A DNA stretch of 38,311 nucleotides, from positions 1 through 38,311 of the forward strand of contig JAKAKP010000023.1 of assembly GCA_021813445.1 (NCBI GenBank). Direction: 5' to 3'. The notes below the pieces were generated by a model. It saw only the letters and a list, made by a program, of their open reading frames with translations, ran no database searches and was not told where the DNA came from. The translations under genes and the position numbers were made by a program. Positions 3,358 to 25,558 of this stretch are shown here, piece by piece (positions within the stretch are counted from its first letter, which is position 1; the number at the start of each line of letters is the position of its first letter). The stretch is from Deltaproteobacteria bacterium (GTDB lineage Bacteria > Desulfobacterota > Desulfobaccia > Desulfobaccales > 0-14-0-80-60-11).

Positions 3358-3948
3358 ATGACTGACTCCCAACTCGTGGCCCGGGCGCAAGAAGGTGATA
3401 TCCCGGCCTTCGAGGAACTGGTCAAAAAGTATCAGCGGGAAATATACGGTCTGGCTTATCGACTGGTACTGGATGCGGAGGAGGCCAAGGATTTGGCGCA
3501 GCAGGCCTTCCTCCAGGCCTTTGTGCACATCCGTAGCTTTCGCCAGCAGGCTCAATTTCGGACTTGGCTTTTCCGGATCGCGATTAATCAGTGCTACAGC
3601 TATTTGAAAAGCAAAAAAAAGTTTGGGGAACCGGTGGACCCGGAGGAATTCGTGACGGTGGGCGAAGAATCTCCGGAAGAAGACTTGGTGACCAAGGACC
3701 GGCGGCAGCGCCTCTATATCGCCCTGGAGCGCCTGCCGGCCAAGCAGCGGGCGGTGATCACCCTGAAACTGGAACAGGGTTTATCTTATGAGGAGATCGC
3801 CCGGGTATTGGGGGGCACTACCGGCGCGGCCCGGGTCAACTATTGCCAGGCTTTGAAAACCTTGAAAAAATATCTGCAAAACGAGGACGAACATGAAGTG
3901 GCGGTGCGCTCTTATCCAAAGGTGGTTGCCCGCATATCTCGACGGTGA
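3358..3948 (+). CDS. ECF-family RNA polymerase sigma factor (RpoE-like)
   Basis: This 196-residue sigma-70 family protein has the two-domain ECF layout. Region 2 (about 10-80) contains VKKYQREIYGLAYRLV, DAEEAKDLAQQAFLQAF and FRTWLFRIAINQCYSYL. After an acidic linker, region 4 (about 125-180) contains LPAKQRAVITLKLEQGLSYEEIARVLG followed by a helix-turn-helix. Region 3 is absent, as expected. The ATG follows AGAGGAT. The gene overlaps the anti-sigma gene by 56 bases, so the two are translationally coupled and probably act as a pair answering envelope stress. Its regulon cannot be read from this window. Confidence 0.92.
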   Translation: MTDSQLVARAQEGDIPAFEELVKKYQREIYGLAYRLVLDAEEAKDLAQQAFLQAFVHIRSFRQQAQFRTWLFRIAINQCYSYLKSKKKFGEPVDPEEFVTVGEESPEEDLVTKDRRQRLYIALERLPAKQRAVITLKLEQGLSYEEIARVLGGTTGAARVNYCQALKTLKKYLQNEDEHEVAVRSYPKVVARISRR

Positions 3949-4408
3949 TCTCCCCTCCTTTTGGAGGGCGAGACTGGGGTCGCACCTGCAGGGGTGCCCG
4001 GCCTGTCGGGAGGAGTTAGCCGGTTTGCGAGAGGTGGTGCGGATAGTCCAGGCCGCAGCCACTCCGGATCAGGGTCCGGCGTTCTGGCAGACTTTCCACC
4101 AGGAACTGCACCTGAAGTTAGCCCAGAACGCCCCGGCCCCGGAGCCGTCCCGTTTTCTGAAATTGCCTTATTATCTAGTGGGGGCCCCGGCCCTGGCCAC
4201 CCTGGTGTTCTGGGCTTTTACCCATCTGGGGCAGCCGCCCCAGAAACCGCTGCTGACCGCCATGGTCGGGCCCGAGCAGGTGGTCTATGCGGGTATGGAA
4301 GACGGCGCCTGGCAGAATGACGAGTACCCCAGTTGGGACGTCGACGCGGTCATGGCCGACCTCACCCACCAGGAGCGGCAAGCGGTGCTGCAAAATGTAC
4401 GTTATTAG
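3893..4408 (+). CDS. Anti-sigma factor with zinc-finger (ZAS) motif and one membrane helix
   Basis: A 171-residue protein that begins inside the sigma gene. Its N-terminal cytoplasmic part has the zinc anti-sigma signature H31-x3-C35-x2-C38 (SHLQGCPACREE), with a further Cys at 5. A hydrophobic segment at about 88-108 anchors it in the inner membrane, leaving a 60-residue periplasmic tail. Such proteins hold the ECF factor at the membrane until a periplasmic cue or a redox or zinc change releases it. The coding overlap of 56 bases with the sigma gene, and the Spy-like periplasmic gene 12 bases downstream, support this arrangement. Confidence 0.85.
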   Translation: MKWRCALIQRWLPAYLDGDLPSFWRARLGSHLQGCPACREELAGLREVVRIVQAAATPDQGPAFWQTFHQELHLKLAQNAPAPEPSRFLKLPYYLVGAPALATLVFWAFTHLGQPPQKPLLTAMVGPEQVVYAGMEDGAWQNDEYPSWDVDAVMADLTHQERQAVLQNVRY

Positions 4409-4420
4409 GGGGAATCAGCC

Positions 4421-5014
4421 ATGCGCTGGTTTACTTTGTCCTTGATCTTGGGACTTCTACTGGCCGGGGTTGCCGGCACGGCCTGGAGCTTCGACCATCC
4501 CGAGACTCTCAATCGCTTCCAGGAAGACGTGAAACGCACCCGCCTGGGACCGGCCCTGGGGGTGGATCAGCGCAAGGTAGACCAGTTGCTCCGCATCGAT
4601 CAGAAGTACAAGCCCTTGAAAGAGCAGGCCCGCCGCGATGCCATCACTGCGTTCCGGCAGTTGCAGCAGGTGATGCGCAATCCTTCCCCCCCTGAGGACC
4701 AGGTGCGGGCCATCCTGGCCACCATGATGCAGAAAAAACAGCAAAGCCTGGACCTCCAGCAACGTCAACTGGAAGAGGAGATGGCTATTCTCACTCCGGT
4801 GCAGCAAGCCCGTTATTTGATGTTTCTCATGAACCTGCGCCGGCAGATGGTCAAGGAAGCCCGCAGCCTGGGGCCGCCCCCCAGAAGCGGCGGTTTGGGG
4901 ACCGTGGGCACCAAACCCGTGGGCAACACCGGGGCCTGGCAGCCGGCCTCACCGTCTGGCGCTCCGGCTGAGGCCATGAGGCCCCCGGCTGGGACCTTCA
5001 GCCCGGCCCGGTAG
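4421..5014 (+). CDS. Periplasmic Spy/CpxP-like LTxxQ protein
   Basis: This 197-residue protein has a signal peptide (MRWFTLSLILGLLLAG, cleavage near TAWS-F at about 24). A long helical region follows (about 35-150), rich in Gln, Arg and Leu, with one LTPVQ motif near residue 126, the LTxxQ hallmark of Spy, CpxP and heavy-metal-resistance (CnrX/ZraP-type) sensors. The last 45 residues are Pro/Gly/Ala-rich and probably disordered. Third gene of the sigma/anti-sigma unit, it could be the periplasmic sensor or chaperone that tunes the anti-sigma factor; that role is inferred from position. Confidence 0.72.
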   Translation: MRWFTLSLILGLLLAGVAGTAWSFDHPETLNRFQEDVKRTRLGPALGVDQRKVDQLLRIDQKYKPLKEQARRDAITAFRQLQQVMRNPSPPEDQVRAILATMMQKKQQSLDLQQRQLEEEMAILTPVQQARYLMFLMNLRRQMVKEARSLGPPPRSGGLGTVGTKPVGNTGAWQPASPSGAPAEAMRPPAGTFSPAR

Positions 5015-6120: not shown

Positions 6121-6320
6121 AGGTGCAAAAGGTTCTTGCCCGTGCCGCAGCCCACCTCCAAGATTTCTTTGGGGGAGCCGGGAGCCGCGGCCAGGCGTAT
6201 TAGCTCCTCCCGGCCCCTAAGAAAGGTCCAGCGGGTGAGGTCGTAGATCCTGGCATGGAGGCGGTAATATTTGACAAGCGCCGATTGCGCTTGGGTTGCA
6301 CTTTCTGTAGTCATTAGCAT
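6121..6320 (-). pseudogene. BtaB-like SAM methyltransferase, N-terminal fragment
   Basis: The first 66 or so residues of a class I methyltransferase: a start region, then KYYRLHARIYDLTRWTFL, GREELI, and motif I ILEVGCGTGKNLLHLG. The frame then continues into DNA that codes for the integrase in another frame. The spacing of the RHxRIYDLTR-like segment and the LEVGCGTGKN motif is what I recall for BtaB, the N-methyltransferase that makes the trimethylated betaine-lipid head group. The start overlaps the stop of the upstream btaA-like fragment by 7 bases, as expected of a btaA-btaB pair. The fragment lacks most of the fold and cannot be active. Confidence 0.65.
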
Positions 6321-6505
6321 ACTTCCGCCAGGTGCAGGCTCCCGTAAGTGCCTACCCGGTCCATTTGATGGAGGGGTTTGGTCAACTCGGGAAAAAATCG
6401 CAATCTTTCAGTGACGGTTTCCGGGAGAAAGCTCAAGTCCGGCCCGGCAGAGCGCAGCAGAATCCTGGTCCCCGGCCGGCTGTTCTCCAAAATCAGGCGC
6501 CGCAG
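6314..6505 (-). pseudogene. BtaA-like (DUF3419) 3-amino-3-carboxypropyl transferase, C-terminal fragment
   Basis: About 61 codons ending at 6314 encode LILENSRPGTRILLRSAG, then a FLPE segment, and finish with DRVGTYGSLHLAEVC. This fits the C-terminus of BtaA/DUF3419 proteins, where a RPGAR-type strand is followed by a terminal D-R-x3-Y-G-x2-H-L motif. BtaA moves the aminocarboxypropyl group of SAM onto diacylglycerol, the first step of betaine lipid synthesis. Upstream of about 6505 the homology stops and the DNA belongs to a membrane-protein gene in another frame. The stop overlaps the btaB-like start. Recognition rests on recalled motifs; a profile search would settle it. Confidence 0.6.
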
Positions 6506-7194: not shown

Positions 7195-8394
7195 TTACTT
7201 CGATTCTAATATGCCTGCCTTATCCGTGGCTTCCCAGGGGAGGTCTAGGTCCATCCGGCCCACCTGGCCATAAGCCGCCAGCTTGCGGTAAAACCCGCCT
7301 TTATTCAAGGACGGCAGGTGCCGCAGACGGAAATCCCGGAGAATGGCCGCGAACCGGAAATCAAAATGGCGTTCCAACAGCGCGGCAATCTCTTCATCGC
7401 TTTTTGTGCCGGTGCCGAAGGTTTCCACCTGGATGCTTACCGGGCGGGCAAAGCCGATGGAGTAACTGAGCTGCACTTCGCATTCCTGGGCCAGACCCGC
7501 GGCCACCACGTTCTTGGCAGCGTAACGGGCGGCGTAAACGCCGATCCGGTCAATCCGCAGCGGGTCTTTGCCGCTTAAAGCATTGGCGCTCTGCCGGGAA
7601 TAATCCCCATAGGTATCCACGTCATTTTTTCTGCCGGTCAGCCCGGAATGCACCGACGGGCCGCCGATCATCAGGTGCTCGATAGGATTGATGGAGATGA
7701 GGGTTTTGTCATCCGACCGGATGGCTTCCCCGGCGAACGCGGGCAGGATGACCGCCTCCTGGAGATCATCGTGCAATCTCTGGGGACTCACCGGATAGTC
7801 CACGGCCTTGGAAATGGACACCGCCAGGGTGAGGCTGTGAATGCGGCGGGGGAGCCGGTCCCGGTATTCCACCCCCACCTGGGTCTTGCCATCCGGGGAG
7901 AGGTAAGGGATTCTTTTTTCCTTTTGGGCTTGGATGATCTGGCGCGCCAGTTTGTGGGCCAGCCAGATGGGCAGCGGCATGAGGGCCTCGCTCTGGCGGC
8001 AGGCGAAGCCAAAAACCGTGGCCTGCTGCCGGACAGGGATTTTCTCGATCTCCGCGTCTGTCAGATTTTTCTCATTGAAATATAAATCCGCCGCGGGCGG
8101 ATACTCCTGGAGGCTGGTCAGGATACTGCAGGTTTGGGGATCGAAATCGGGCCAGCGGTAGCCGATGCGGCTGATCACCTTGCGGGCCAGGGCGGGCATG
8201 TCGGCTTTGACCTCGGAGGCAAAGCGGGCGGCAATAAACAGGATGGAAGTGGAGACCGCACATTCGGCCCGCACCCGGGCATAGGGGTCCTGCTCCAGGA
8301 AATGGTCGACAATGGCGTCGCTGATCTGGTCGCAAATTTTATCGGGATGTCCTTCCGTAACCGACTCGGAAGAGAAGATGAAATCCTTTTTCAT
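7195..8394 (-). CDS. Divergent MetK-like S-adenosylmethionine synthetase paralogue
   Basis: The 399-residue protein is full length for a methionine adenosyltransferase. The ATP/phosphate-binding set is kept: His16 and Asp18 in EGHPDKICDQ, Glu44, Lys170, Arg255-Lys256 in GLTGRK, Lys276 in SGKDP and Asp282. The residues that contact methionine in the E. coli enzyme appear replaced in my hand alignment: Glu55 by Arg57, Gln98 by Tyr98, Asp118 of GAGDQG by Gln123 (PVRQQA), and Asp238 by His249 (GGPSVHSG). Lys269 is Arg280. It is therefore a paralogue rather than the housekeeping MetK. Start ATG 8394 has GGAG upstream. It sits in the array that ends in btaA- and btaB-like remnants, both SAM users, so it may once have supplied that pathway. 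Confidence 0.8.
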   Translation of the reverse strand: MKKDFIFSSESVTEGHPDKICDQISDAIVDHFLEQDPYARVRAECAVSTSILFIAARFASEVKADMPALARKVISRIGYRWPDFDPQTCSILTSLQEYPPAADLYFNEKNLTDAEIEKIPVRQQATVFGFACRQSEALMPLPIWLAHKLARQIIQAQKEKRIPYLSPDGKTQVGVEYRDRLPRRIHSLTLAVSISKAVDYPVSPQRLHDDLQEAVILPAFAGEAIRSDDKTLISINPIEHLMIGGPSVHSGLTGRKNDVDTYGDYSRQSANALSGKDPLRIDRIGVYAARYAAKNVVAAGLAQECEVQLSYSIGFARPVSIQVETFGTGTKSDEEIAALLERHFDFRFAAILRDFRLRHLPSLNKGGFYRKLAAYGQVGRMDLDLPWEATDKAGILESK

Positions 8395-8455: not shown

Positions 8456-9136
8456 CTAAATGTGAATGGGCAGGACCATAATGATTTCCGCCAGGCCGAT
8501 GCCCACAAGGAGGAGGCCGGAGACCACCCAGGCCCATTTCCCTTTCCAACTGGTCCCCATATAGCGCCCGATACCGATACCCACCCAAAAAGTGAGGATG
8601 CTCAAGAGACCTACGGCCAGGGTGGTCACGGCCACCGGCAGTTTAATCATCGCCGCGGCCACGCCATTGGGCAGGTTATTTAACAACAAGGCCACCCCCA
8701 GGAGCGTGCCTTCCTTGAAGTCGATGTGGCCCGAAAAGTCATCATCCGCCAAAGAGGGGTTATCCAGAATGCAGACCAGCCGCCGCCAGAGGGACTGCGG
8801 GGGCCTCTCCTCCCCGGTAGCAGGCTTCCTGGGTTCGGGGCATTTGGATTCCTTGAGGGATACGGTCTCTTGCAGTACCACCCAGACGCCCATGGCGATG
8901 AGGATGCCACCCCCCAGGATGGCCCCGCTTTCCGGGGAAAGGAATAAGAAGGTCTGTTGTCCCAGGACCATGGCTAAGGCCGTCCCGGCGGCAGTAAGCA
9001 CCGCGATATACAGGTTGGTACGGAAGGGTAAGATTATCCCCCGGACGCCGTACGAGATCCCCACCCCCACGTTATCCAGATTGCAGGACACGGCGATGAG
9101 CAGAGCGGTTAGTGCCAGCGGGCAGGTCATGGTCAC
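8456..9136 (-). CDS. MntP/YtaF-like cation efflux membrane protein
   Basis: This 226-residue polytopic protein has six predicted membrane segments in two related halves, the DUF204 (MntP/YtaF) plan. The first half has CNLDNVGVGISYGVRG and the second LLLNNLPNGVAAAMI, the duplicated acidic/Asn motifs of the family. Between them is a hydrophilic loop (about 100-140) that includes DNPSLADDDFSGHIDFKE, a segment typical of the YtaF branch. MntP proteins export Mn2+; the ion for YtaF-type members is not established. It starts 6 bases after the stop of the P-type ATPase, so the two are co-transcribed and may act on the same or a competing divalent cation. Confidence 0.75.
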   Translation of the reverse strand: MTMTCPLALTALLIAVSCNLDNVGVGISYGVRGIILPFRTNLYIAVLTAAGTALAMVLGQQTFLFLSPESGAILGGGILIAMGVWVVLQETVSLKESKCPEPRKPATGEERPPQSLWRRLVCILDNPSLADDDFSGHIDFKEGTLLGVALLLNNLPNGVAAAMIKLPVAVTTLAVGLLSILTFWVGIGIGRYMGTSWKGKWAWVVSGLLLVGIGLAEIIMVLPIHI

Positions 9137-9142: not shown

Positions 9143-12100
9143 TCAGGCTGGAGAATCCGGAAGAGACGGGGTTGGAGATTCCTCCTCCGGTGCGGTTAGA
9201 GTTAGAGTTTTAGTTGACTCATTTACTAGCAGCGGCAACAGTGAGGTGCCGGCAATGACCACGCCGTCCAACAGGCCCACGGGTGTGAGTCCGAGGATAT
9301 TGCGTAAGCCCGGAATGAACATGGCACCGGCCTGTACCAGCAAGGAACCGCCCAAGGCCAGGTTCAAATAACGGTTGGGAGGCAAGTTCCCCGGGCTAAA
9401 AATGCTGTGCCTCTCCGAGCGGCAACTGACCGCGTGGAGCAACTGACCGGTGGTGAGGCTGTGGAAGGCCAGGGTGCTGGTTTGGGCTCCGAGGCCGTAG
9501 CGCAGCCAGCCATAGCCGAACGCGCCCAAGGCGCCGGCCGTGAGCACCCCGGATTCGAAGGTCATGCGCTTGAAGTCCCGCGAACTGAAAATCGGGGCAT
9601 GGGGATTGCGGGGCGGCCGCTGCAACACATCCGGTTCGGCCTCCTCCAGGGATAAGGCCAGACCGGGAAAGATGTCGGAGATGAGGTTGATCCACAGAAG
9701 CTGCATCGCGGTTAAAGGGGACCCCAAGCCCACCATCAGGGCAACCCCGGTTAGCATGATCTCGCTCAGGTTGGTGCTCAAAAAGAAATGCACCGATTTC
9801 TTAATATTGATATAGGTAGTGCGCCCGTCCCGGATGGCGATGATCAGAGTGTCCAGATTGTCCTTCTCCAGGACCACATCCGCCACTTCCCGGGCGATGT
9901 CGGTGCCGGTGCGCCCCATGGCGATACCCACATCCGCGGCCTTCAGCGCCGGGCCGTCATTGATGCCGTCCCCGGTCATGGCCACCACCTGGCCGGACTC
10001 CTGCAAGGCCTGGACAATCTTCAGCTTGTGAGCCGGGCTGACCCGGGCAAAAACATGGGCCCTCCGGGCCAGGGCCCGCAGGGCCTCGGTGTCCATGTCC
10101 CCCAGGTGCGTGGCATCCAGGATTTCGATGGGGCCGCGGCGGCTGAGTTCCAGTTCCTGGCCGATGGCATAGGCCGTGGGGCTTTGGTCCCCGGTGATCA
10201 TCACCGTCCTGATACCGGCGTGGTGCAGGGCCTCAATGGCCTGGGATACCCCCTCCCGGATGGGGTCGGCCATACCCACCATTCCCAACCAGACCAGGTC
10301 CTGAGGTTCCTTCAGGTCGCGCACCCCTTCCCCCGCCGCCAAAGCCAGACCCAGCACCCGGTAGGCCTTGCCCGCCATCCGCTCGTTCGCGGCTTCAATC
10401 TCCCCCCGGTCTTCTTCCGTCAGGGGGACTTCTTTTCCATCCCGGAGTTGCCGGGAGCACAGCGTTAGGACTTCCAGGGGGCTGCCCTTGACGGCCAGAA
10501 ACGGCCCATTACCGTTTTCATGCAAGCTGCCCATGAAAGGCCGGTTTTCCGAGCGGTAGTTGATGTGCACCAGGGGATATTGCCGCCGCAATCCCGAGAC
10601 ATCCATCCCCAATTGCAAGGCCAGGCGCACTAAGGTGCTTTCCGTGGGGGTGCCGCTGAGCCGGACTTCGCCGCCCTCCTGGTGAATTTCCGTTTCATTG
10701 CATAGGACGGAAACCGTGATGAGTTGGGCCAGTTCCTCGCAATCGTCGAAGGAGACCGGGCCTTGCGGCGCAAAGAATTGGCCCGCGGCCACGCCGAGGG
10801 AACGCATGCCGGTGTGAATCTCCATCACCGCCATTTCGTTTTTGGTGATGGTGCCGGTCTTATCCAGGCACAGGGTCTGCACCGCGCCCAGGGTCTCCAC
10901 CGCGTGGAGGTGGCGGATGAGCACGTGGTGCCCCCGCATGTCCCGGATACCTAGGGCCAGGGTGGTGGTGGCCGCTGCGGGGAGACCTTCCGGCACCGCG
11001 GCCGCGGCCAAACAGACGGCTGTGCGCAGCATCTCCAGCCAGCCATAGCCCCAAAAGATGCCCATGCCGAAGGCCACGCCGCAGAGGCCGAAGCAGAGCC
11101 AGACCAGTCTGTTGCCCAGCTCGTCGAGCTGCCGCTGCAACGGCGTGTCCGGTGCTTCCGCCTCCCCGGCCAGGGTTTGAATTCTGCCGATTTCGGTAAA
11201 GCTGCCGGTGGCCACCACCACCATCAGACCTTCGCCGCCGGTCACCAGGGTGCCCATGAATACCAGGTTCACCCGGTCCCCCAGGGGGATATTTTCCCCC
11301 CGCAGGGCTTTGACCGTCTTGACTACCGGCATACTCTCGCCGGTCAGCACGGATTCGTCCAGGGACAGATGGGTGGCTTCCACCAGGCGGCCGTCCGCGG
11401 GGACATAGCTTCCCGGCCGGAGCACACAGAGGTCGCCCAGGGTGACTTCAGCCGTGGAAATTTCCTGAAGCTCTCCCTCCCGCACCACCAGGGCGTTGGG
11501 CCGGACCATGGTCTGCAGGGAGCGGATGGTCTTTTCCGCTTCTACCTCGGTTTTGTAGCCGATCAAAGCGTTGCCCACCACCACCCCGGCGATGAGCACG
11601 GCGTCCACCAGGCCGCCGGTGAAGATGGAAAGGCCTGCTGCCGCACCCAAGAGATAGACGGGCAGGGAATTAAACTGCTCCAAAAAGATGCTGAGGCCGG
11701 AGCGGGGTTCGGCCTCCGGCAGCCGATTGGGTCCGTAAAGCCGCTGATTCTCCTGGGCCGTCCGGCAGGACAGCCCCCGGGCCTTGGAAGTCCCCCACTT
11801 CTCCAGAGCCGCATCGGTCTTGAGCAAGTGCCAAGCTTCCTGGGGCTGCTCTTCGACGAAGGAGAATAAATTGGTAAGCGGTTCCAGGTACGAGTAGCCG
11901 CTGCCAGTGGGCGACTCGGCAGGAGGTGAACAGGCCTTGGCGCCGTTGCCCGCAGCGAGCTGGCTGCGGCATTCCGAGGCGATGCCTTCCAGGAGCGCGG
12001 CGATGCTGTCGCTGGTGTTGCCGGAGTTATAGCAGACCAGGACGTTGCCGGTCAGGGCGCTGGCCGAGACCTGGGTAATTTCCTTCACGCGGGCCAGCCG

Positions 12101-12196
12101 GAACTCCAGGAGCCTTTGGAAGTCTTGGGACCGGTACAAGCCCTCGACTTTGAAGCGCGCCCGCCCGGCTACCGCAGTATGCAGGGCCTGGATCAT
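9143..12196 (-). CDS. P2-type (SERCA-like) cation ATPase with N-terminal HMA_2-like domain
   Basis: The protein has 1017 residues. Residues 1-75 form an HMA_2-like domain (VAGRARFKVEGL) without a CxxC metal site. The ATPase part begins near 115. It has TGES (285-288), PEGLP in M4 (402-406), the phosphorylated Asp445 in DKTGT, the KGSP ATP-binding motif near 570 and TGDGIND from 741. Ca2+-ligand equivalents of SERCA are all visible: Glu403 (M4), Asn809 and Glu812 in NLSE (M5), Asn837, Ser840 and Asp841 in NLISD (M6). No CPC or SPC motif exists, so this is not a heavy-metal P1B pump; Ca2+ or Mn2+ is the likely cargo. The gene lies between the 22-mer repeat protein and the MntP-like exporter. 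The start has a poor ribosome-binding site. Confidence 0.9.
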   Translation of the reverse strand: MIQALHTAVAGRARFKVEGLYRSQDFQRLLEFRLARVKEITQVSASALTGNVLVCYNSGNTSDSIAALLEGIASECRSQLAAGNGAKACSPPAESPTGSGYSYLEPLTNLFSFVEEQPQEAWHLLKTDAALEKWGTSKARGLSCRTAQENQRLYGPNRLPEAEPRSGLSIFLEQFNSLPVYLLGAAAGLSIFTGGLVDAVLIAGVVVGNALIGYKTEVEAEKTIRSLQTMVRPNALVVREGELQEISTAEVTLGDLCVLRPGSYVPADGRLVEATHLSLDESVLTGESMPVVKTVKALRGENIPLGDRVNLVFMGTLVTGGEGLMVVVATGSFTEIGRIQTLAGEAEAPDTPLQRQLDELGNRLVWLCFGLCGVAFGMGIFWGYGWLEMLRTAVCLAAAAVPEGLPAAATTTLALGIRDMRGHHVLIRHLHAVETLGAVQTLCLDKTGTITKNEMAVMEIHTGMRSLGVAAGQFFAPQGPVSFDDCEELAQLITVSVLCNETEIHQEGGEVRLSGTPTESTLVRLALQLGMDVSGLRRQYPLVHINYRSENRPFMGSLHENGNGPFLAVKGSPLEVLTLCSRQLRDGKEVPLTEEDRGEIEAANERMAGKAYRVLGLALAAGEGVRDLKEPQDLVWLGMVGMADPIREGVSQAIEALHHAGIRTVMITGDQSPTAYAIGQELELSRRGPIEILDATHLGDMDTEALRALARRAHVFARVSPAHKLKIVQALQESGQVVAMTGDGINDGPALKAADVGIAMGRTGTDIAREVADVVLEKDNLDTLIIAIRDGRTTYINIKKSVHFFLSTNLSEIMLTGVALMVGLGSPLTAMQLLWINLISDIFPGLALSLEEAEPDVLQRPPRNPHAPIFSSRDFKRMTFESGVLTAGALGAFGYGWLRYGLGAQTSTLAFHSLTTGQLLHAVSCRSERHSIFSPGNLPPNRYLNLALGGSLLVQAGAMFIPGLRNILGLTPVGLLDGVVIAGTSLLPLLVNESTKTLTLTAPEEESPTPSLPDSPA

Positions 12197-12330: not shown

Positions 12331-13002
12331 TCAGGACTTCTTGGCCTTGGGGCTTTCTTTCTCCGGGTGGGCTTCGGCCTCACCAGGAGCCGCCGGTGTG
12401 GCTCCGCCTTTGGGCAGGGCCGCACAGGCCACCTCTTTGACACCCTCGACGGTCCACACCAGGATATCGGTGACGGCCCGCACCGCAGATTGCCCCAGGG
12501 TGCCGGCGGCATCAATGGCGCCACCTACCGCTGCCTTGGCGGCCCCGCCCAGATTGGTCCCCAACTGCCCGGCAGCCTCCATGACCCCGGACACCGCGCC
12601 CTGGGCCACTTTCGCCACATCGCCGCCTACTTCCGCGGCCCCGTTCACCGCGCCTTTGAGCAATTGGCCAGCCGCCTTCTCAACATCCCCACCGACATCG
12701 GCCACCCCTAGAATCACGCCCTTGGCCACGCTCTTGGTGGTGGCGATGACGCCGGTGCCCACTTCTTCTGAGGCCTTAATCGCCCCTTTGATCACGTCCC
12801 GGCTGACATTGAGGGTTTCGTTGGCCACTGCGCCGGTGGCCTGCAAGGCGTCGGCCACGGTGTTCCGGGCCACGGTCACAATCTGACCCTCAATCTCACC
12901 CAAGCCTTTGAGGCTGCCCATGATGCCGTCTTTTAACGTGGTCCCAGCCTGGCCCAGGGTTTCTCCCAGACCTGCCGGTTTTTTGGTTTCTGCTTCAGCC
13001 AT
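12331..13002 (-). CDS. Amphipathic 22-residue-repeat protein (unknown function)
   Basis: The 223-residue protein belongs to no family I recognise. Residues 28-181 are seven uninterrupted 22-residue repeats without gaps, each of the type x-G-A-V-x-G-A-x-x-V-G-x-x-V-x-x-A-x-x-x-A-V. Hydrophobic Val, Ile, Leu and Ala recur at fixed places, and Gly, Lys and Asp lie between them. A period of 22 (2 x 11) is the signature of the membrane-surface helices of apolipoproteins, synucleins and perilipins. The C-terminal 40 residues are a Pro/Glu/Lys-rich tail. There is no signal peptide and no clear membrane span. ATG 13002 was chosen because AAAGGAGG lies 7 bases upstream; an upstream in-frame ATG at 13044 lacks such a site. 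It precedes the P-type ATPase in the same direction. Confidence 0.82.
   Translation of the reverse strand: MAEAETKKPAGLGETLGQAGTTLKDGIMGSLKGLGEIEGQIVTVARNTVADALQATGAVANETLNVSRDVIKGAIKASEEVGTGVIATTKSVAKGVILGVADVGGDVEKAAGQLLKGAVNGAAEVGGDVAKVAQGAVSGVMEAAGQLGTNLGGAAKAAVGGAIDAAGTLGQSAVRAVTDILVWTVEGVKEVACAALPKGGATPAAPGEAEAHPEKESPKAKKS
12460..12921 (-). repeat. Seven in-frame 66-base coding repeats (22-residue units)
   Basis: Seven consecutive 66-base units encode the 22-mers at residues 28-181 of the repeat protein. Units 4 and 5 are the most alike, both with VGGDV at unit positions 10-14. Conservation is at protein level; the DNA has diverged, so the duplication is old. Confidence 0.75.
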
Positions 13003-13052
13003 CTGTTCCTCCTTTTGGCCCCTAAACAAAGGCCTTATGACCAAAAACCGGG

Positions 13053-13349
13053 TTACACACCCTTCAGGTTGTCTTTCAGTAAAGATGCCAGTTCCATGAC
13101 GTTGACATCCGGGAAGATCGTGTTGAACGCCTGCTTCAGGGCCAGAAGAGAGAAGATGGACGTCACTTCCCGGTAATTATAGGAGACTGTCAGTAATCCT
13201 GCTGTCGGGTCAATCTCCAACCGCTGTATGCCCTGGATAGAAGAAAAGCGTTCCCGGATGGCCAGAGCCATTTCATGGTTATTTTTTAAATCAACGACCG
13301 CCAGGCTAAGAAAGCCCGGCCCGGTCTCTCTGACTTCAATGCCATTCAT
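13053..13349 (-). CDS. Small HMA_2-like protein 1
   Basis: 98 residues with a ferredoxin-like HMA_2 pattern: a first strand (GPGFLSLAVVDLK), helix (MALAIRERFSSI), the IQGIQRLEIDPTAGLLTVSYN strand-turn-strand block, and a C-terminal helical part. The equivalent block in the other paralogues is GVxxVEANPxTGSLLxxYD. It has no cysteine, so it cannot bind metal in the way classic HMA domains do. It also lacks the GRxRxK motif seen in its neighbours. ATG 13349 is preferred over a TTG at 13364 because GGGAG lies 5 bases before it. It is the first gene of the minus-strand array leading to the repeat protein and the ATPase, with a Pho-like box 37 bases upstream. Confidence 0.7.
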   Translation of the reverse strand: MNGIEVRETGPGFLSLAVVDLKNNHEMALAIRERFSSIQGIQRLEIDPTAGLLTVSYNYREVTSIFSLLALKQAFNTIFPDVNVMELASLLKDNLKGV

Positions 13350-13385
13350 GCGAACTCCCGCCAAATTCTCTTGTTATGAATAAAC

Positions 13386-13413
13386 ATTATCCTCCCTTTT
13401 AACAATAGGTTAG
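13386..13413 (-). promoter_or_regulatory. Pho-box-like 11-base direct repeat, minus strand
   Basis: Read on the minus strand: CTAACC (13413-13408), TTAAAA (13402-13397) and GATAAT (13391-13386), with starts 11 bases apart. It sits upstream of small HMA_2-like protein 1. PhoB-type response regulators bind direct repeats of this period. Confidence 0.5.
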
Positions 13414-13414
13414 G

Positions 13415-13430
13415 GGCGATACATATCGCC
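13415..13430. promoter_or_regulatory. Palindromic operator candidate between divergent promoters
   Basis: GGCGATA-CA-TATCGCC is a 16-base inverted repeat lying between the minus-strand box (13386-13413) and the plus-strand box (13451-13467). The symmetry suits a dimeric repressor; the PadR protein encoded at 15.3 kb is one possible reader. Confidence 0.4.
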
Positions 13431-13450
13431 AGGCGTTATTATCTAAAATA

Positions 13451-13467
13451 TTAACTAAAAAATAACT
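13451..13467 (+). promoter_or_regulatory. Pho-box-like direct repeat before the 52-codon ORF
   Basis: TTAACT (13451-13456), five A, ATAACT (13462-13467): two hexamers 11 bases apart, with a CATTAT -10-like hexamer at 13479-13484. It stands 73 bases before the ATG of the small ORF. Confidence 0.45.
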
Positions 13468-13539
13468 TTCTTCTCATTCATTATGAATAAGTGTCTGTTA
13501 TGGAAGTGGCCAACTATTTAATCGTGAGGAAATGAACTG

Positions 13540-13698
13540 ATGCAAGCCGCATGGTTAATTTTAAGGATTTGCCGTCAGTATTGCGGTGACCGGAAGCGGC
13601 CGCGGTTCTACCAACTGGGGATTGCCAGGGCCTTGCTCAGGCACAACGGTTTCCGTCTCTTAACCTCGTATGACCACAGGAAAAAAATGTGGCATTAA
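13540..13698 (+). CDS. Small basic protein of unknown function (52 residues)
   Basis: A 52-codon ORF starts with ATG at 13540 and has GAGGA (13526-13530) nine bases upstream. The product is strongly basic, with about a dozen Arg and Lys, and contains LRICRQYCGDRKRPRFYQLG and ALLRHNGFRLLTSYDHRKKM. No membrane span or signal peptide is evident. I recognise no family. Support comes from three independent signs: a good ribosome-binding site, its own Pho-like box, and GC-rich codon use inside an otherwise AT-rich spacer. Its stop overlaps the start of the next Pho-like box. It could be a small nucleic-acid-binding or regulatory peptide, or a chance frame. Confidence 0.45.
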   Translation: MQAAWLILRICRQYCGDRKRPRFYQLGIARALLRHNGFRLLTSYDHRKKMWH

Positions 13699-13733
13699 CC
13701 AAAAATTAACAAAAATATTATTTTCCCATAACA
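13695..13733 (+). promoter_or_regulatory. Pho-box-like array of four 11-base-phased hexamers
   Basis: TTAACC (13695), TTAACA (13706), ATTATT (13717) and ATAACA (13728) all start 11 bases apart. A TATCTT -10-like hexamer at 13743 lies 15 bases after the last start. It precedes small HMA_2-like protein 2 at 13788. Confidence 0.55.
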
Positions 13734-13787
13734 ATCATTATGTATCTTTGCTATCAGTATTACCCCATTACTGCCAAGGAGAAGAAT

Positions 13788-14126
13788 ATGACCACTTACA
13801 TCCACGCCCTCAACGGGAGGCTGCGCATTAAGATACCCGAGCTCAAGGGCAACCCCATGATGGCCAGGGAACTTGAGGATAATTTCAACCTCTTGACCGG
13901 CATGCATCAGGTATCCGCCAATCCGGTCACCGGCAGCTTGCTCTTTATTTACGACCCGCATCTTCTCGATCAGGAGGAGATCTTCGCGGCTTTAGAAGAA
14001 GCGGGGCACGCCCGGCATCATAGCGCGGCTGCCGCCCACTCCGGTATGGTGGAGACAATCACTTCCACGGTGGCTTCCGGCCTCATGGAAATGGCCCTGA
14101 CCCGCTTAGTGGGCGCGCTTATCTAA
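13788..14126 (+). CDS. Small HMA_2-like protein 2
   Basis: A 112-residue protein. MTTYIHALNGRLRIKIPELKG at the start contains the GRxRxKxP motif of this HMA_2-like group. It is followed by a helix (MARELEDNFNLLTGM) and HQVSANPVTGSLLFIYDP. The C-terminal third is a His/Ala-rich stretch (HARHHSAAAAHSG) and a weakly hydrophobic helix that may touch the membrane. There is no cysteine pair; the four His in the 93-105 region could bind metal. ATG 13788 was chosen because AAGGAGAAG lies just upstream, and it drops 16 unlikely N-terminal residues. It is transcribed away from the ATPase array and towards the next HMA_2-like gene, from its own Pho-like promoter. Confidence 0.72.
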   Translation: MTTYIHALNGRLRIKIPELKGNPMMARELEDNFNLLTGMHQVSANPVTGSLLFIYDPHLLDQEEIFAALEEAGHARHHSAAAAHSGMVETITSTVASGLMEMALTRLVGALI

Positions 14127-14127
14127 A

Positions 14128-14201
14128 GAATAAGGAACCTTAACGCTGCCGCTTCACCTGCCTGCCGTTTCCTGGCACTAGCCAGGAAATACCCCCCCTT
14201 A
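14128..14201. terminator. Nested hairpin in a convergent intergenic region
   Basis: An inner perfect stem TTTCCTGGC-ACTA-GCCAGGAAA (14166-14187) lies within outer arms GAATAAGG (14128-14135) and CCTTATTC (14194-14201). It stands between two converging HMA_2-like genes, where a two-way terminator is expected. There is no long T run. Confidence 0.45.
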
Positions 14202-14303
14202 TTCCCTCAATCCAGTCAGCATCCACCGGGCCTCCGGTCTCTCTCCCGATTTTTGGCAACAACCCGGGAAGAAGCAGGATGTTCTATGGGAGTCACCCCG
14301 GCG

Positions 14304-14867
14304 TCAGGGGGTCTTGGGTTCAGGGGGCATTGGGATTGAGGCCGGAGCGCCCGCCAACGCTCCCCGCCGATTCAACATCACCAAAGCGCCGGCGCCCAAC
14401 ATGAGGTAATCAAACCAGGCAGGGAACCCCGTTTCTTTGGAGGCGACCAGACTACGCACCCCCAGAAAAACGAGGGCGAGGGGCAGAAGGAGATTCAGGT
14501 TGAAACCGGGATTCACCCCAGGATGGATCATGTCCAGCAATCCGCCGGCGGTGTGGGCCTCGGCGCCCGCTTCCATCAATTTCTGCAATCCCGTGGCCAG
14601 TTCCTCCAAAGCCACTTCCGGGAAGAGCTCGCCAAAAACTGCTCCCAAGGGGCCCAGGGCTTCCGCGGAAGCCAGCATGGCCAGGTCATAAAGGATCAGC
14701 AGGCTGCCGGTGGCGGGGTTAGCCTCCACCCCTTGGACGCCCGGCACCTGGCTTAGCCGTTCTTGGGCCTGGCGGGCGAGTTCCGGGTTTTGCTTGACCC
14801 TGGGGATCTTGAGGCGCACCCTGCCCGGCACGGCATGGGTGACTGTAATGCCCTTGAGTTCCCTCAT
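14304..14867 (-). CDS. HMA_2-like protein 3 with C-terminal membrane segments
   Basis: 187 residues. Residues 1-65 are an HMA_2-like domain: TVTHAVPGRVRLKIPRVKQ, helix, then VPGVQGVEANPATGSLLILYD. An acidic helical linker follows. Two hydrophobic segments (about 122-140, LNLLLPLALVFLGVRSLV, and 148-166, WFDYLMLGAGALVML) form a membrane hairpin. The tail is Pro/Ala-rich. There are no cysteines. The layout suggests a cytosolic HMA_2 domain tethered to the membrane, possibly to meet the matching domain on the ATPase. It lies 13 bases after the DUF5132-like gene, in one unit. Confidence 0.75.
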   Translation of the reverse strand: MRELKGITVTHAVPGRVRLKIPRVKQNPELARQAQERLSQVPGVQGVEANPATGSLLILYDLAMLASAEALGPLGAVFGELFPEVALEELATGLQKLMEAGAEAHTAGGLLDMIHPGVNPGFNLNLLLPLALVFLGVRSLVASKETGFPAWFDYLMLGAGALVMLNRRGALAGAPASIPMPPEPKTP

Positions 14868-14880
14868 CTTCCGGGATCCA

Positions 14881-15165
14881 TCAAGCCTTGGGTTTGGCCT
14901 TGGCCGCGGCGGCCGCCGCGGCGGCAGTTTCCGCGGTCCTTTCCGCCTTGACCTCAGCCATCAGATCGCTCACCTGCTCCTGGGCCTCGGCGGCTAATTC
15001 TTTCACCGTATCCGCCAGGGCCAGATATCCCCTAATCAGGCTTTTGGCCAGGGGGCGGGAAACGGAAGCCACGGCCGGCAGCACGATGGGCGCGGCCAGG
15101 GCTACCCCCAGGATAACCAAGATGCTTCCCGTTGATCCTTTCAGTCCATCGTCAAACAGTCCCAC
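14881..15165 (-). CDS. DUF5132-like small membrane protein
   Basis: 94 residues: one long hydrophobic segment (about 13-36, ILVILGVALAAPIVLPAV), then a conserved-looking SRPLAKSLIRGYLALADTVKEL helix and an acidic amphipathic helix (AEAQEQVSDLMAEVKAE). It ends in an Ala/Lys-rich tail with a run of eight Ala. This is the DUF5132 plan. A membrane anchor plus a Glu/Ala-rich cytosolic helix is also the plan of PacL (DUF1490) proteins, which gather mycobacterial P-type ATPases into membrane platforms; the likeness is one of architecture only. GTG 15165 has AAGGAG upstream. It forms a unit with the membrane HMA_2-like gene. Confidence 0.72.
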   Translation of the reverse strand: MGLFDDGLKGSTGSILVILGVALAAPIVLPAVASVSRPLAKSLIRGYLALADTVKELAAEAQEQVSDLMAEVKAERTAETAAAAAAAAKAKPKA

Positions 15166-15200
15166 GGCGGTCTCCTTTGCTTCGGAAATAAAGTTTTTTT

Positions 15201-15239
15201 TTAATCAAAAATTAACAGTTTCCTCAATCGTTGCTAACA
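15201..15239 (+). promoter_or_regulatory. Pho-box-like repeat in the padR/DUF5132 divergent region
   Basis: TTAATC (15201), TTAACA (15212) and CTAACA (15234) start at multiples of 11 bases, with position 15223 degenerate. The region lies between divergent genes, so it could serve either; the orientation points to padR. Confidence 0.5.
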
Positions 15240-15260
15240 GACATATATCAGAATGCGATT

Positions 15261-15644
15261 ATGCTAAACGCACGGGCCATCCATCGGGATTTTCTCCAGG
15301 GGTTGGTGAAAATCTTTATCCTTCACCAGGCCGGCCAGGGGCCGGTATATGGCAACAGGCTGAATAAGGCCTTGCATGCTCTGGGATACGAGATCAGTCC
15401 GGGCAGCCTTTATCCCCTCCTCCACACCCTGGAGAACTCTGGCTTCCTGCACAGCCGCCTCCGGGTCTTTAAAGGCCGGGTGCGAAAATATTATGAACTC
15501 ACGGAGCAGGGACGCGTCTGTCTGTCCGAACTCCGCCAAAACTTGGGAGATCTGGTGCGCACCGTCATCCTGGACCCTCTGTCCGCAACTGCGGTCAACT
15601 CCACCGCCGCAAAACCCGCGGAAAAGCTGCCGATAAACGGTTAA
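15261..15644 (+). CDS. PadR-family transcriptional regulator
   Basis: A 127-residue winged-helix protein. The DNA-binding domain (about 10-85) reads FLQGLVKIFILHQAGQGPVYG, LNKALHALGYEISPGSLYPL, LHTLENSGFLHS and then a RKYYELTEQGR wing, all typical of PadR. The dimerisation part is short. ATG 15261 is preferred; a TTG at 15231 would put part of the phased repeat inside the gene. No clear ribosome-binding site precedes either. Divergent from the DUF5132-like gene, it is the likely local repressor of the HMA_2/ATPase locus. PadR proteins usually respond to a small ligand or to drugs; the ligand here is unknown. Confidence 0.82.
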   Translation: MLNARAIHRDFLQGLVKIFILHQAGQGPVYGNRLNKALHALGYEISPGSLYPLLHTLENSGFLHSRLRVFKGRVRKYYELTEQGRVCLSELRQNLGDLVRTVILDPLSATAVNSTAAKPAEKLPING

Positions 15645-15956
15645 CGCCATCTGCGCGGCCATGACCGCTGCCGTTCCCATCTCCGCCAATTTTCGCACGG
15701 TCCCCCAAATGGCCCGCCGGGGGTCATTCCGCCAAAACTCTATTGCTAAACCATTGACATTTGAGGTTCCGATTTCAAGGGACGCAGGATAAAAATTAAG
15801 AAAAACGCAAATTTAACAAAAAGAAAACACTGGCAAAACATATGGGGAGTAGAAGGAATTCATAATGCAGATTAGTAGAGTTGCCTAGTCTTGTTTGCAA
15901 GGCCTTCTCAGGTTCAAAGGCCTGTTTCAACCTCAATTATTAAGAAAGGGAGAACT
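15645..15956. other. Intergenic region between padR and the lipid operon
   Basis: 312 bases with no convincing gene. The first 100 bases are GC-rich and may hold the end of the padR message. The second half is AT-rich and carries the Pho-like repeats at 15813-15840 and a CATAAT hexamer at 15861-15866. Confidence 0.5.
15813..15840 (+). promoter_or_regulatory. Pho-box-like repeat before the methyltransferase/decarboxylase/glycosyltransferase operon
   Basis: TTAACA (15813), AAAACA (15824) and AAAACA (15835) start 11 bases apart. The last two are weaker matches to the common hexamer. CATAAT at 15861 is the nearest good -10-like sequence, 91 bases before the ATG. Confidence 0.4.
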
Positions 15957-16649
15957 ATGGTAGGTTTTAGTCTGAGCGACGCGCTTCTGAAAGACATTCT
16001 CCATTTCGCCAAACCCTTCGGGCACCGGGAGAAGGCCAAGAATCTCAACCTGGGCTTCGGGTTTCTTTACTATGCCCTGGTCCGGGCCCTGCGTCCCAAG
16101 CACACCCTGGTGATCGGTTCGGGCTACGGCTTCAGCGTCGTCTGCTTCGCCCTGGGCCTAAAGGATAACGGCTCTGGGTCCCTCACCTTTGTTGATCCTT
16201 CCTACTCCTTGCTCAAGGACGGCCCCCTGGCTACGGTGGGCGGCCGGGGCATGTGGTCGGAGGAAGGTTCGGTGCGCGCCCATTTTGAAAGGTTCGGAGT
16301 GCAGGACCTAGTCACGCATTACAAATTACGCAACGATGAATTCTTTCCGGCATATGACTCTTTCAACCTGCCGCCCCTGGATCTGGCCTTCATCGACGGC
16401 AGCCACGCCTATGAGGACGTGAAATACGATTTCACCAACGTCCTGGCCCATTCCCACAAGAACACCTATATCCTCCTGCACGACTCCAACATCTATATCC
16501 GGGAATTGCTCAATCATGCAGGGGTCAAGAAATGGATGAAGTTCATCAAGAGACATAAGGAATATTTTGAAGTGGTAAATTTCCCCTTCTCTTCAGGAGT
16601 GGCCCTGGTGAGGGTGATCGATCCCGCCATTTGGAAGGAGCTCCATTGA
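15957..16649 (+). CDS. Class I SAM-dependent methyltransferase (Methyltransf_24-like)
   Basis: A 230-residue protein with a Rossmann-type SAM site (LVIGSGYGFSVVCFALGL, about 60-77), an acidic strand end (LTFVDPSY) and the DLAFIDGSHAYEDVKYDF segment typical of the Methyltransf_24 group. The HDSN near residue 180 is also usual there. The substrate is unknown. ATG 15957 follows AAGGGAG. The stop overlaps the TTG start of the phosphatidylserine decarboxylase gene, so the two are coupled; methylation of a lipid head group or lipid-linked sugar is a reasonable guess from this context. Confidence 0.78.
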   Translation: MVGFSLSDALLKDILHFAKPFGHREKAKNLNLGFGFLYYALVRALRPKHTLVIGSGYGFSVVCFALGLKDNGSGSLTFVDPSYSLLKDGPLATVGGRGMWSEEGSVRAHFERFGVQDLVTHYKLRNDEFFPAYDSFNLPPLDLAFIDGSHAYEDVKYDFTNVLAHSHKNTYILLHDSNIYIRELLNHAGVKKWMKFIKRHKEYFEVVNFPFSSGVALVRVIDPAIWKELH

Positions 16650-17332
16650 ACCCCTGGCTCTTGGCGCCGCCGCTGAGCCTGGCCGCCGGTTTCCTCTATT
16701 GGCGTTACGTCTGGTTTTTCCGCAACCCCCCCCGTGTCCCGCCCCCCGGAGAAAACATCCTCAGCCCCGCGGATGGCACCGTGGTTTATGTCCGCCTGGT
16801 AAAGCCGCACCAGGAAGTGGTCACCATCAAACAGGGGGTCGAGGCCCGCCTCCAGGACATCGTCAAGGAGGACCTGATTTATCCCAAAATCTCCATCGGC
16901 ATCTTCATGAGCCCCTTCAGCGTCCATTACAACCGCATTCCTCTGGCCGGACGGGTGGCGGCCGTGCAGCATCATCCTGCGACTCCCCAGAACCTGTCCA
17001 TGTTCCCCATGCACTGGCGCCTGCTGCTGCGCCGGCCGCCGTTTTACCGTCACTCCCGCCACATCATCCAGAATGAGCGGACCGTGACCCGCATTGAAAG
17101 CATCTATAAGGGAGAGCAAGTCTCCTACTATATCGTGCAAATTGCCGCCAGGAGCGTGAATGGCATCGACAGCTATGTCAAAGAGGGGGAGGAAGTAAGC
17201 AAAGGCAAAATTTTCGGCATCATCCGTATCGGCTCGCAGGTGGACCTGGTCCTGCCGCACCGCCCGGACCTGGAACTCATGGTGGGTCCGGGGGATAAGG
17301 TGCGGGCCGGGGAAACAATTCTCATTGCCTGA
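16646..17332 (+). CDS. Phosphatidylserine decarboxylase-like proenzyme
   Basis: A 228-residue protein of the short PSD type. It has a membrane-associated N-terminus (NPWLLAPPLSLAAGFLYWRYVWFFRNP), LSPADGTVV with Asp43, FMSPFSVHYNRIP with His94, and GIIRIGSQVDLVLP with Ser197, the self-cleavage site that yields the pyruvoyl group. Asp, His and Ser match the triad of E. coli Psd. A basic, aromatic insert (about 110-145) is larger than in related short enzymes. The product would be phosphatidylethanolamine or a related amine lipid. The TTG at 16646 is favoured because GGAAGGAG lies 5 bases upstream and it overlaps the preceding stop. Confidence 0.82.
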   Translation: MNPWLLAPPLSLAAGFLYWRYVWFFRNPPRVPPPGENILSPADGTVVYVRLVKPHQEVVTIKQGVEARLQDIVKEDLIYPKISIGIFMSPFSVHYNRIPLAGRVAAVQHHPATPQNLSMFPMHWRLLLRRPPFYRHSRHIIQNERTVTRIESIYKGEQVSYYIVQIAARSVNGIDSYVKEGEEVSKGKIFGIIRIGSQVDLVLPHRPDLELMVGPGDKVRAGETILIA

Positions 17333-20737: not shown

Positions 20738-21811
20738 ATGCTTTCCGGCCAGAATGTGGAGAAAAGTAAATTGAAAAGATTAGTCTTTTTCATTTTGACG
20801 GCCGTCCTGTTACCTCTGAATGCGTCCACTGCCAAGGCCGAGGTGGTCATTAAGGGGGCCGGCGCTTCCTTTCCCTATCCCTGCTATTCCCTGTGGACTT
20901 ACAAATATTACGATGTCACCCGGGTTAAGGTCCTTTATCAGTCCATAGGCTCGGGCGCAGGCATAACCCAGATCAAGGCCAGAACGGTGCAATTTGCCGG
21001 TTCCGATGCACCGCTGCATCCGGAGCAATTAAAAGAGTTCAATTTGGTCCAGTTCCCCATGTTGGTAGGCGGCGTTGTGCCCATAGTAAATCTTAAAGGA
21101 GTCAAGCCCGGGGATCTGCGTCTCACTCCAGAGGTACTGGCTGCAATCTTCTTGAAGAAGGTTACCCGTTGGAACGACCAGGCTATTAAGATGGAGAATC
21201 CTAACCTTAGCCTGCCGGACCAGGAGATCACCGTGGTCCACCGCGAGGACGGTTCCGGCACCACCTTCATTTTTACCAATTATCTCAGCAAGATCTCGCC
21301 GGAATGGCAACAAAAAGTGGGGAATCATAAAGAGGTAGATTGGCCCACTGGGATTGGCGGCAAACAAAATGAGGGGGTGGCCAGCAAAGTCATGCAAATC
21401 GACGGATCCATTGGATACGTGGAGTATGCCTACGCCATCCAAAATCTGATCCCCTATGCATTATTGCGCAACCACGACGGCCATTACGTCCAACCCAATA
21501 CGGACACCTTCATGGCCGCGGCCGATACCGCGGATTGGCAAAATGCCCAAGGGTTTTACATGATCCTGACCAACCAGCCGGGAAAGGACACTTGGCCCAT
21601 CGTCGGCGCTACCTTTATTTTGATGCAGAAAAGTCAGGAGAATCCGGAGCAAGCCCGCGCCACCTTGAACTTCCTCGACTGGGCCTACCAGCACGGCCGG
21701 GAAATCGCGCTTAAATTACATTATGTGCCTCTTCCTAAAGGGGTTATCAGGCTGATTGAGGATTACTGGTCCAAGGAAATTAAAACCACCGGCGGTGAAA
21801 GAATCTGGTAG
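20738..21811 (+). CDS. pstS: PstS-like periplasmic phosphate-binding protein
   Basis: 357 residues with a signal peptide (LKRLVFFILTAVLLPLNASTAKA) and mature start near AEVVIKGAGASFPYP. The phosphate-site motifs of PstS are present: GAGASFP, YQSIGSGAGI, FAGSDAP and HREDGSGTTFIF. It binds inorganic phosphate in the periplasm for the Pst transporter. No pstC, pstA, pstB or phoU lies nearby; instead it overlaps a hybrid histidine kinase gene by 56 bases. ATG 20738 gives an extra N-terminal stretch; TTG 20771 with GGAG upstream would give a more usual signal peptide. A Pho-like box stands about 160 bases upstream. Confidence 0.92.
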   Translation: MLSGQNVEKSKLKRLVFFILTAVLLPLNASTAKAEVVIKGAGASFPYPCYSLWTYKYYDVTRVKVLYQSIGSGAGITQIKARTVQFAGSDAPLHPEQLKEFNLVQFPMLVGGVVPIVNLKGVKPGDLRLTPEVLAAIFLKKVTRWNDQAIKMENPNLSLPDQEITVVHREDGSGTTFIFTNYLSKISPEWQQKVGNHKEVDWPTGIGGKQNEGVASKVMQIDGSIGYVEYAYAIQNLIPYALLRNHDGHYVQPNTDTFMAAADTADWQNAQGFYMILTNQPGKDTWPIVGATFILMQKSQENPEQARATLNFLDWAYQHGREIALKLHYVPLPKGVIRLIEDYWSKEIKTTGGERIW

Positions 21812-24662: not shown

Positions 24663-24690
24663 TTAACCAAAAATTAATCCTCCCTTAATC
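24663..24690 (+). promoter_or_regulatory. Triple Pho-box-like repeat before phnF
   Basis: TTAACC (24663), TTAATC (24674) and TTAATC (24685) are three near-identical hexamers exactly 11 bases apart, the clearest array in the window. It stands 94 bases before the phnF start, where control by phosphate starvation is expected. Confidence 0.7.
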
Positions 24691-24726
24691 AGAGAGAAAT
24701 ATTCCCGTGCTAAAAGTCTGTCTACC

Positions 24727-24736
24727 TGTCTAGACA
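24727..24736. promoter_or_regulatory. PhnF/HutC-type operator
   Basis: TGTCTAGACA is a perfect 10-base palindrome 20 bases before the phnF start codon. GTCTAGAC is the core of operators used by HutC-subfamily GntR regulators such as DasR and PhnF, so self-repression is likely. Confidence 0.65.
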
Positions 24737-24756
24737 AACGGAGGGCTTTGGCCTTG

Positions 24757-25491: not shown

Positions 25492-25539
25492 TTAAGCGGC
25501 GCGAATGTCTGGCAAGACTGGCGGAGGGGGTTCAACTCC

Positions 25540-25558
25540 TTTTATCGGCTCGATAAAA
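25540..25558. repeat. Inverted repeat in the phnF-phnD spacer
   Basis: TTTTATCG-GCT-CGATAAAA is a perfect 8-base-pair inverted repeat, 39 bases before phnD. A weaker GTCT-N4-AGAC repeat is at 25507-25518. Either could be an operator or a stem that shields the phnD message. Confidence 0.45.

Follow-up and report, generated by a model that had tools for sequence, protein, structure and literature searches.

A conserved gene module, probably under phosphate control, around a predicted Ca2+ or Mn2+ pump of the P2A type

Contig JAKAKP010000023.1 of a Deltaproteobacteria bacterium (assembly GCA_021813445.1, genome total 4.2 Mb) carries a P2A-type cation ATPase surrounded by small membrane-associated proteins, and the question is whether these genes form a unit with the pump, and what such a unit may serve. 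The whole contig, 38,311 nucleotides long, was analyzed and is referred to as the window. The evidence suggests, with a probability of about one half, that the cluster is a conserved Pho-regulon module for a membrane-bound cation-transport complex with a Ca2+ (or Mn2+) pump at its center. Along the minus strand the genes follow in the order DUF5132 protein (15165-14881), HMA_2 protein with a membrane segment (14867-14304), degenerate HMA_2 protein (13352-13053), 22-residue-repeat protein (13002-12331), ATPase (12196-9143), YtaF/MntP-type protein (9136-8456) and a homologue of methionine adenosyltransferase, MetK (8394-7195); two divergent genes, for a free HMA_2 protein (13788-14126) and for PadR (15231-15644), lie on the plus strand. 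All the genes listed in the initial annotation are present at, or very near, the positions it gave, as confirmed by Pfam and NCBIfam matches; the divergent MetK homologue, which belongs to the conserved unit, had been overlooked.

Five of these genes, coding for the DUF5132 protein, the HMA_2 protein with a membrane segment, the repeat protein, the P2A ATPase with its N-terminal HMA_2 domain and the MetK-like protein, recur as one operon in at least five phyla, usually accompanied by a free HMA_2 gene that stands apart from it. When 84,980 species were searched with a profile of the repeat protein, 111 relatives turned up, and the best 80 of the 111 (loci L091-L170) were analyzed: these belong to Desulfobacterota, Nitrospirota, Planctomycetota (Brocadia), Pseudomonadota (Nitrosospira, Nitrosovibrio, Thiobacillus, Halothiobacillaceae) and Methylomirabilis. 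Counting only loci of named genomes with enough flanking sequence, the complete five-gene set is present in 33 out of 39. Taken singly, the HMA_2-headed ATPase is found in 65 of 73 loci, an HMA_2 gene close to that of the repeat protein in 64 of 71, the DUF5132 gene in 54 of 58 module loci and the MetK-like gene in 49 of 55. The gene order is repeated in the family and order of the window's organism, and also in other families of its phylum. In nitrifiers, the ATPase and MetK-like genes are inverted as a pair with respect to the remaining module genes and are still linked to them, so that the linkage outlasts rearrangement. Cultured carriers include Nitrosospira multiformis Nl7 and Desulforhabdus sp. 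TSK.

Whole genomes give the same indication. Among 297 genomes of the window's phylum, HMA_2 is found in 48, DUF5132 in 20, the MetK-like protein in 20 and a strong repeat-protein match in 17. All 20 genomes with DUF5132 also feature HMA_2, and 19 of the 20 with the MetK-like protein also feature DUF5132 (19 genomes share both, 20 each; Fisher p 9e-28); in a second phylum (148 genomes) the figures are 15 for DUF5132, 13 for MetK-like and 12 for both, DUF5132 being present in 12 of the 13 MetK-like genomes (Fisher p 4e-14), where both p values ignore shared ancestry. The idea that a P2-type pump has its own set of conserved partner proteins, for which conservation in relatives and a genome search for co-occurrence had been named as checks, is thus supported by synteny and co-occurrence across phyla: the gene set is conserved, and DUF5132 and MetK-like genes share genomes in two of them. 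The module, apparently widespread, is apparently also undescribed: no mention of its hallmark families was found in the literature searched.

The link to phosphate comes from upstream boxes and from neighboring genes. Pho-like boxes had been noticed in front of several genes; they are real TTAAY repeats with an 11-bp period, resembling the cyanobacterial Pho box. By motif search with a spacer control, one box, TTAACCAAAAATTAAC (13695-13710, plus strand), is located upstream of the free HMA_2 gene, and another, TTAATCAAAAATTAAC (15201-15216, plus strand), between the DUF5132 and PadR genes. The 11-bp period is also that of the Pho box of Synechocystis, CTTAACCT with a 3-bp linker (PMC1906773). 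TTAAY-N6-TTAAY has five matches in the window (15201, 24663, 24674 and 13695, the last overlapped on the reverse strand by a match at 13694), where about 0.06 are expected in shuffled sequences; all other spacers in the range 0-13 gave none in the window. The preference is also sharp in the upstream regions of core genes from the 80 loci, with 54 matches at spacer 6 versus 0-7 at every other length in the range 0-13; boxes are present in 41 of 209 such regions, versus 2.5 expected from dinucleotide shuffles. Tandem PhoB/SphR-type repeats of 11-bp period, looked for as the mark of a Pho regulon, are found both in the window and upstream of core genes elsewhere. In addition, pst/phoU genes of the pstSCAB-phoU set adjoin the module in 17 of the 80 loci, in two orientations, with further cases at loci L026, L045, L049, L054 and L055; among loci lacking the P2 ATPase, none showed such adjacency. 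Boxes and pst/phoU adjacency together support the earlier suggestion of a phosphate connection.

The window also contains, outside the module, a gene for the phosphate-binding protein PstS (20738-21811, plus strand; TIGR00975 366 bits, cut-off 205) and, by motif search, tandem Pho-type boxes upstream of phnF in a phosphonate operon (24663-24689, plus strand). This phn (C-P lyase) operon, spanning 24663-31045 and featuring PhnF, PhnD, PhnC, PhnE, PhnH and PhnI, forms with its surroundings a phosphate island adjoining the module.

The last gene of the operon (7195-8394, minus strand; TIGR01034 348 bits) codes for a divergent paralogue of methionine adenosyltransferase, homologous to MetK/MAT over its full length. 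In the 297-genome survey its family scores 560-745 bits, versus at most 416 for canonical MetK, leaving a clear gap; its members form one clade with support 100, in a quick tree that carries a long-branch warning. A canonical MetK is encoded elsewhere in the window's genome and, at about 570-625 bits, in the same genome wherever fully recovered, one fragmented Thiobacillus assembly giving pieces only. The window's genome contains also a third MetK (contig C124, 29751-30875, locus L076; 526 bits), which has diverged from the canonical copy without being of the MetK-like type. Synteny, clade and co-occurrence exclude that the gene of the module is a canonical MetK placed there by chance.

In human MAT, E70, Q113 and D258 hold methionine, while R264, K265, K285, D291, H29 and D31 form the catalytic and triphosphate site (PMC6850014, PMC7271947). 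Among 54 MetK-like proteins, numbered as human MAT2A, E70, D258 and K289 are replaced in all 54, D258 always by His and K289 always by Arg, and Q113 is replaced in 52; of the residues expected in a SAM (S-adenosylmethionine) synthase, E70 and D258 are therefore kept in 0 of 54 and Q113 in 2. In contrast, H29, D31, K32, E57, K265, K285 and D291 are retained in 54 of 54, R264 in 52 and K181 in 50, so that the residues for Mg2+ and triphosphate are conserved. Because methionine-binding residues are lost and Mg2+/triphosphate residues are kept, the protein is probably not a SAM synthase; these residues suggest that SAM synthesis is gone and that a triphosphate activity survives. Patient variants of MAT1A show that the two can be separated: D258G and K289N lose SAM synthesis and retain triphosphatase activity (PMC6850014). 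From MetK/MAT the family thus differs by its own clade, by the replacement of methionine-binding residues in essentially all members and by the constant company of the module.

The same residues bear on a different explanation, lipid remodelling during phosphate starvation, in which the MetK-like enzyme would make SAM, or a relative of it, on the spot for membrane enzymes that consume SAM, such as those of betaine lipids, while the pump would replace cations lost with phospholipids. Phosphate control would fit, as would the BtaA-family (DUF3419) genes found directly after the MetK-like gene in the sister family of the window's organism (L023, L024, L025, L027, L163) and near the module in a congener (L018), and the phosphatidylserine decarboxylase and methyltransferase genes near the module in the window's order. 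Yet strong BtaA matches are present in only 2 of the 20 surveyed MetK-like genomes, which rules out a general SAM supply for BtaA; the loss of methionine-binding residues, and the canonical MetK in each module genome checked, save for gaps in fragmented assemblies, also make this explanation distinctly unlikely. As for the window itself, a 59-residue C-terminal piece of a BtaA-family (DUF3419, betaine-lipid) protein is encoded at 6317-6493 (minus strand; 75% identity), and appears truncated in comparison to full-length relatives. Methyltransferase and phosphatidylserine decarboxylase-like genes are located at 15891-17332; both families of the order retain them close to the module.

The ATPase (9143-12196, minus strand) was assigned to the P2A, Ca2+-pump type by Pfam/NCBIfam models, motifs and solved relatives. 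Its best NCBIfam model is the PMR1-type Ca ATPase (622 bits, under the curated cut-off of 798), its domains follow the P2A order (Cation_ATPase_N, E1-E2, HAD, Cation_ATPase_C), and its nearest solved relatives are LMCA1, SPCA1 and SERCA (E below 1e-100). The transport motifs PEGLP, NLSE and NLISD are all present; M5 reads STNLSE, matching SERCA. M4 carries PEGL[PST] in 82 of 85 pumps and M6 carries N-x-x-[ST]-D in at least 72 of 85. On these motifs, Ca2+ is the likeliest ion, with Mn2+ next. PEGLP and N-x-x-[ST]-D are shared with PMR1/SPCA, SERCA and LMCA1, from which the module pump differs by its N-terminal HMA_2 domain (E 1e-6, 29.2 bits, cut-off 30) and by its obligate partner genes.

The pump is the sole HMA_2-headed ATPase of the window's genome. 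In the same phylum, shorter HMA_2-headed ATPases (700-830 residues), weakly similar to it, probably correspond to the P1B type of fez clusters, and we take such clusters to be represented among ATPases of this length. Three others, of about 1000 residues (L044:8160-11303, L049:6896-9910, L055:1958-4966), show 35-40% identity to the pump and an M4 without PEGL (PPEA in two of them), and apparently constitute a third class of HMA_2-headed ATPase.

Three further HMA_2 proteins are encoded in the window. The one at 14304-14867 (minus strand; PF19991 E 8.2e-17) carries GRVRLK and a C-terminal hydrophobic, membrane region (KD19 2.03); the free protein at 13788-14126 (plus strand; PF19991 E 2.6e-14) has a conserved C-terminal helix and, by alignment, homologues across phyla; in the third (13053-13352, minus strand; PF19991 E 5.9e-6, under the cut-off), GFLSL replaces GRxR, and this degenerate protein is common only within the window's order. 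The profile of the free protein matches HMA domains of Cu-ATPases (E 4e-18). Its AlphaFold2 model is a ferredoxin-like HMA fold, with a predicted local distance difference test score (pLDDT) above 90 over the domain, and superposes on ATP7B and CopZ (versus the ATP7B domain, E 1e-3, TM 0.76 by target). HMA_2-like proteins had thus been correctly recognized, but the CxxC metal site expected of 'HMA' domains is present in none of 316 HMA_2 domains, which rules out heavy-metal binding of that kind; GRxR is found in 271 of the 316, usually as GRxRxK. Their sequences suggest that the ligand would be an anion or a lipid in place of a heavy metal.

Lack of CxxC in all HMA_2 domains weakens an alternative in which the pump simply detoxifies Ca2+/Mn2+ with the aid of metallochaperone-like proteins, its tie to phosphate being a chance neighborhood. 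A P2A pump with HMA-family partners could be read in this way, and in the window it is adjoined by the putative Mn efflux protein of YtaF/MntP type (8456-9136, minus strand; TIGR02840 154 bits, cut-off 150), located between the ATPase and MetK-like genes. The sharp preference of the Pho-type boxes for spacer 6, the pst adjacency in two orientations and the obligate partnership with the MetK-like protein all speak against it, and we consider it very unlikely. The YtaF/MntP-type gene is outside the conserved core; YtaF-like genes are also found near the repeat gene at loci L124, L131 and L132. Elsewhere in the window (3358-5014), genes for an extracytoplasmic function (ECF) sigma factor, a zinc-finger anti-sigma-like protein and a periplasmic Metal_resist-like protein stand in a row, a possible metal or envelope stress unit.

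Two known systems had been proposed for comparison, and in both cases the resemblance holds while membership does not. The ATPase of fez (ferrosome) clusters, FezB, is of class P1B-6; the module pump is instead of the P2A type, by its PMR1-type best model, PEGLP in M4 and Cation_ATPase_C, and this excludes membership. The analogy with fez, a P-type ATPase with small membrane partners, stands, and GRxR HMA_2 domains also head P1B-length ATPases (about 700-830 residues) in the module's phylum; it is weakened by the P2A ATPase and by a signal that is phosphate and not iron. While fez is repressed by Fur (PMC12574912), control of the module appears to be of Pho type, and the module, known from its genes alone, features in addition a repeat protein, DUF5132 and the MetK-like protein.

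For mycobacterial PacL/Ctp platforms the comparison concerns the first gene of the operon (14881-15165, minus strand; PF17195 E 4.4e-7), whose DUF5132 product has one membrane segment (KD19 maximum 2.7) and a charged helical tail. This product resembles PacL in architecture, as a small protein with one membrane segment whose helical tail is rich in Ala and Glu and whose gene accompanies that of a P-ATPase. However, PacL has DUF1490 (or DUF6110) and a C-terminal metal-binding motif, whereas 14881-15165 matches neither family at E up to 1 and its tail, AAAAAKAKPKA, is devoid of an Asp/His metal motif, so that PacL membership is ruled out. By analogy, the module may still work like the fez or PacL systems. 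The PadR-type regulator (15231-15644, plus strand; PF03551 E 8.5e-18), divergent from the DUF5132 gene, is present as annotated, but adjoins the module only within the window's family, and is therefore excluded from the core.

The repeat protein (12331-13002, minus strand) has its probable start at the ATG at 13002 rather than at 13044. The 22-residue repeat described for it far exceeds chance (z = 9.6 for self-similarity at lag 22, versus shuffles), and the helical moment, peaking at 98 degrees, indicates an amphipathic helical protein. Seventeen relatives show 48-70% identity to the window copy, with a mean column identity of 56% over the 18 members. One of five AlphaFold2 models (pLDDT 66.5, predicted template modelling score 0.60) features helices of about 19 residues with a turn every 22. 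Designed helical repeats are its best structural matches, which may reflect merely a common helix arrangement; no convincing solved relative was found, the best being a designed repeat at E 0.1, and alpha-synuclein (E 0.81) is at chance level. The models are compatible with either a folded repeat scaffold or a membrane-bound amphipathic array. A relative of the protein is encoded at L028:8976-9824 with no module nearby, and a second copy, of 325 residues, inside a module at L054:10148-11125.

An amphipathic repeat protein could also coat a vesicle. In such a reading, the module would build granules similar to ferrosomes or acidocalcisomes, where the P2A pump loads Ca2+ or Mn2+ with phosphate or polyphosphate, and the MetK-like protein handles (poly)phosphate. 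Phosphate control, the retained triphosphate site of the MetK-like protein and the combination of an HMA_2-headed ATPase with HMA_2 partners, as in the HMA_2/P1B clusters of the same phylum, are in its favor. On the other hand, no vesicle-shaping or lumen protein was recognized, the compartment being proposed from genes, and AlphaFold2, at low confidence, favors a folded helical repeat over a simple coat helix: the idea appears unlikely. Its boldest form is a doubtful proposal, which we regard as rather unlikely: a new type of phosphate-controlled organelle or membrane domain, in which a P2A pump stores or moves Ca2+ or Mn2+ with phosphate or polyphosphate, GRxR HMA domains are anion adaptors and a MetK fold has turned into a triphosphate or polyphosphate enzyme.

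Several observations keep the Pho-regulon reading, with its membrane-bound cation-transport complex, at even odds. Pho-type boxes are found upstream of a core gene in just 25 of the 80 loci, and many are common to neighboring genes; of the two phoU loci of the window's genome, one has a box (L173) and the other none (L174). Against Ca2+-ATPase models the pump does not reach the curated cut-offs, and its ion specificity is deduced from motifs. In the MetK-like proteins, two adenine-contacting positions (S247, R249) are changed, which puts ATP binding in doubt. Expression, localization, transport and enzyme function are here all read from sequence.

If the Pho-regulon reading is correct, phosphate scarcity would induce the complex through PhoB-type control. 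The ATPase would move Ca2+ (or Mn2+) from the cytosol, either over the inner membrane or to a compartment inside the cell, and would be gathered and regulated by its own HMA_2 domain together with the HMA_2 partners. The ligand of their GRxRxK strand would be phosphate, polyphosphate or an anionic lipid, not a heavy metal. DUF5132 and the HMA_2 protein with a membrane segment would anchor the assembly, the repeat protein would cover or scaffold the membrane face, and the MetK-like enzyme would act on ATP, triphosphate or polyphosphate, making no SAM. The net role would be to match the handling of divalent cations to the phosphate and polyphosphate pool of the cell.

In sulfate reducers, Nitrospirota, anammox bacteria and the ammonia-oxidising Nitrosospira and Nitrosovibrio, such a module would be linked to the supply of phosphate, and its use in phosphate-starved cells is a testable question. 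An entire clade annotated as SAM synthetase is predicted to make no SAM, an annotation that would mislead metabolic models. The module bears on whether HMA_2-headed ATPases besides FezB build compartments, and would allow the coupling of divalent-cation pumping to phosphate and polyphosphate in bacteria to be tested directly.

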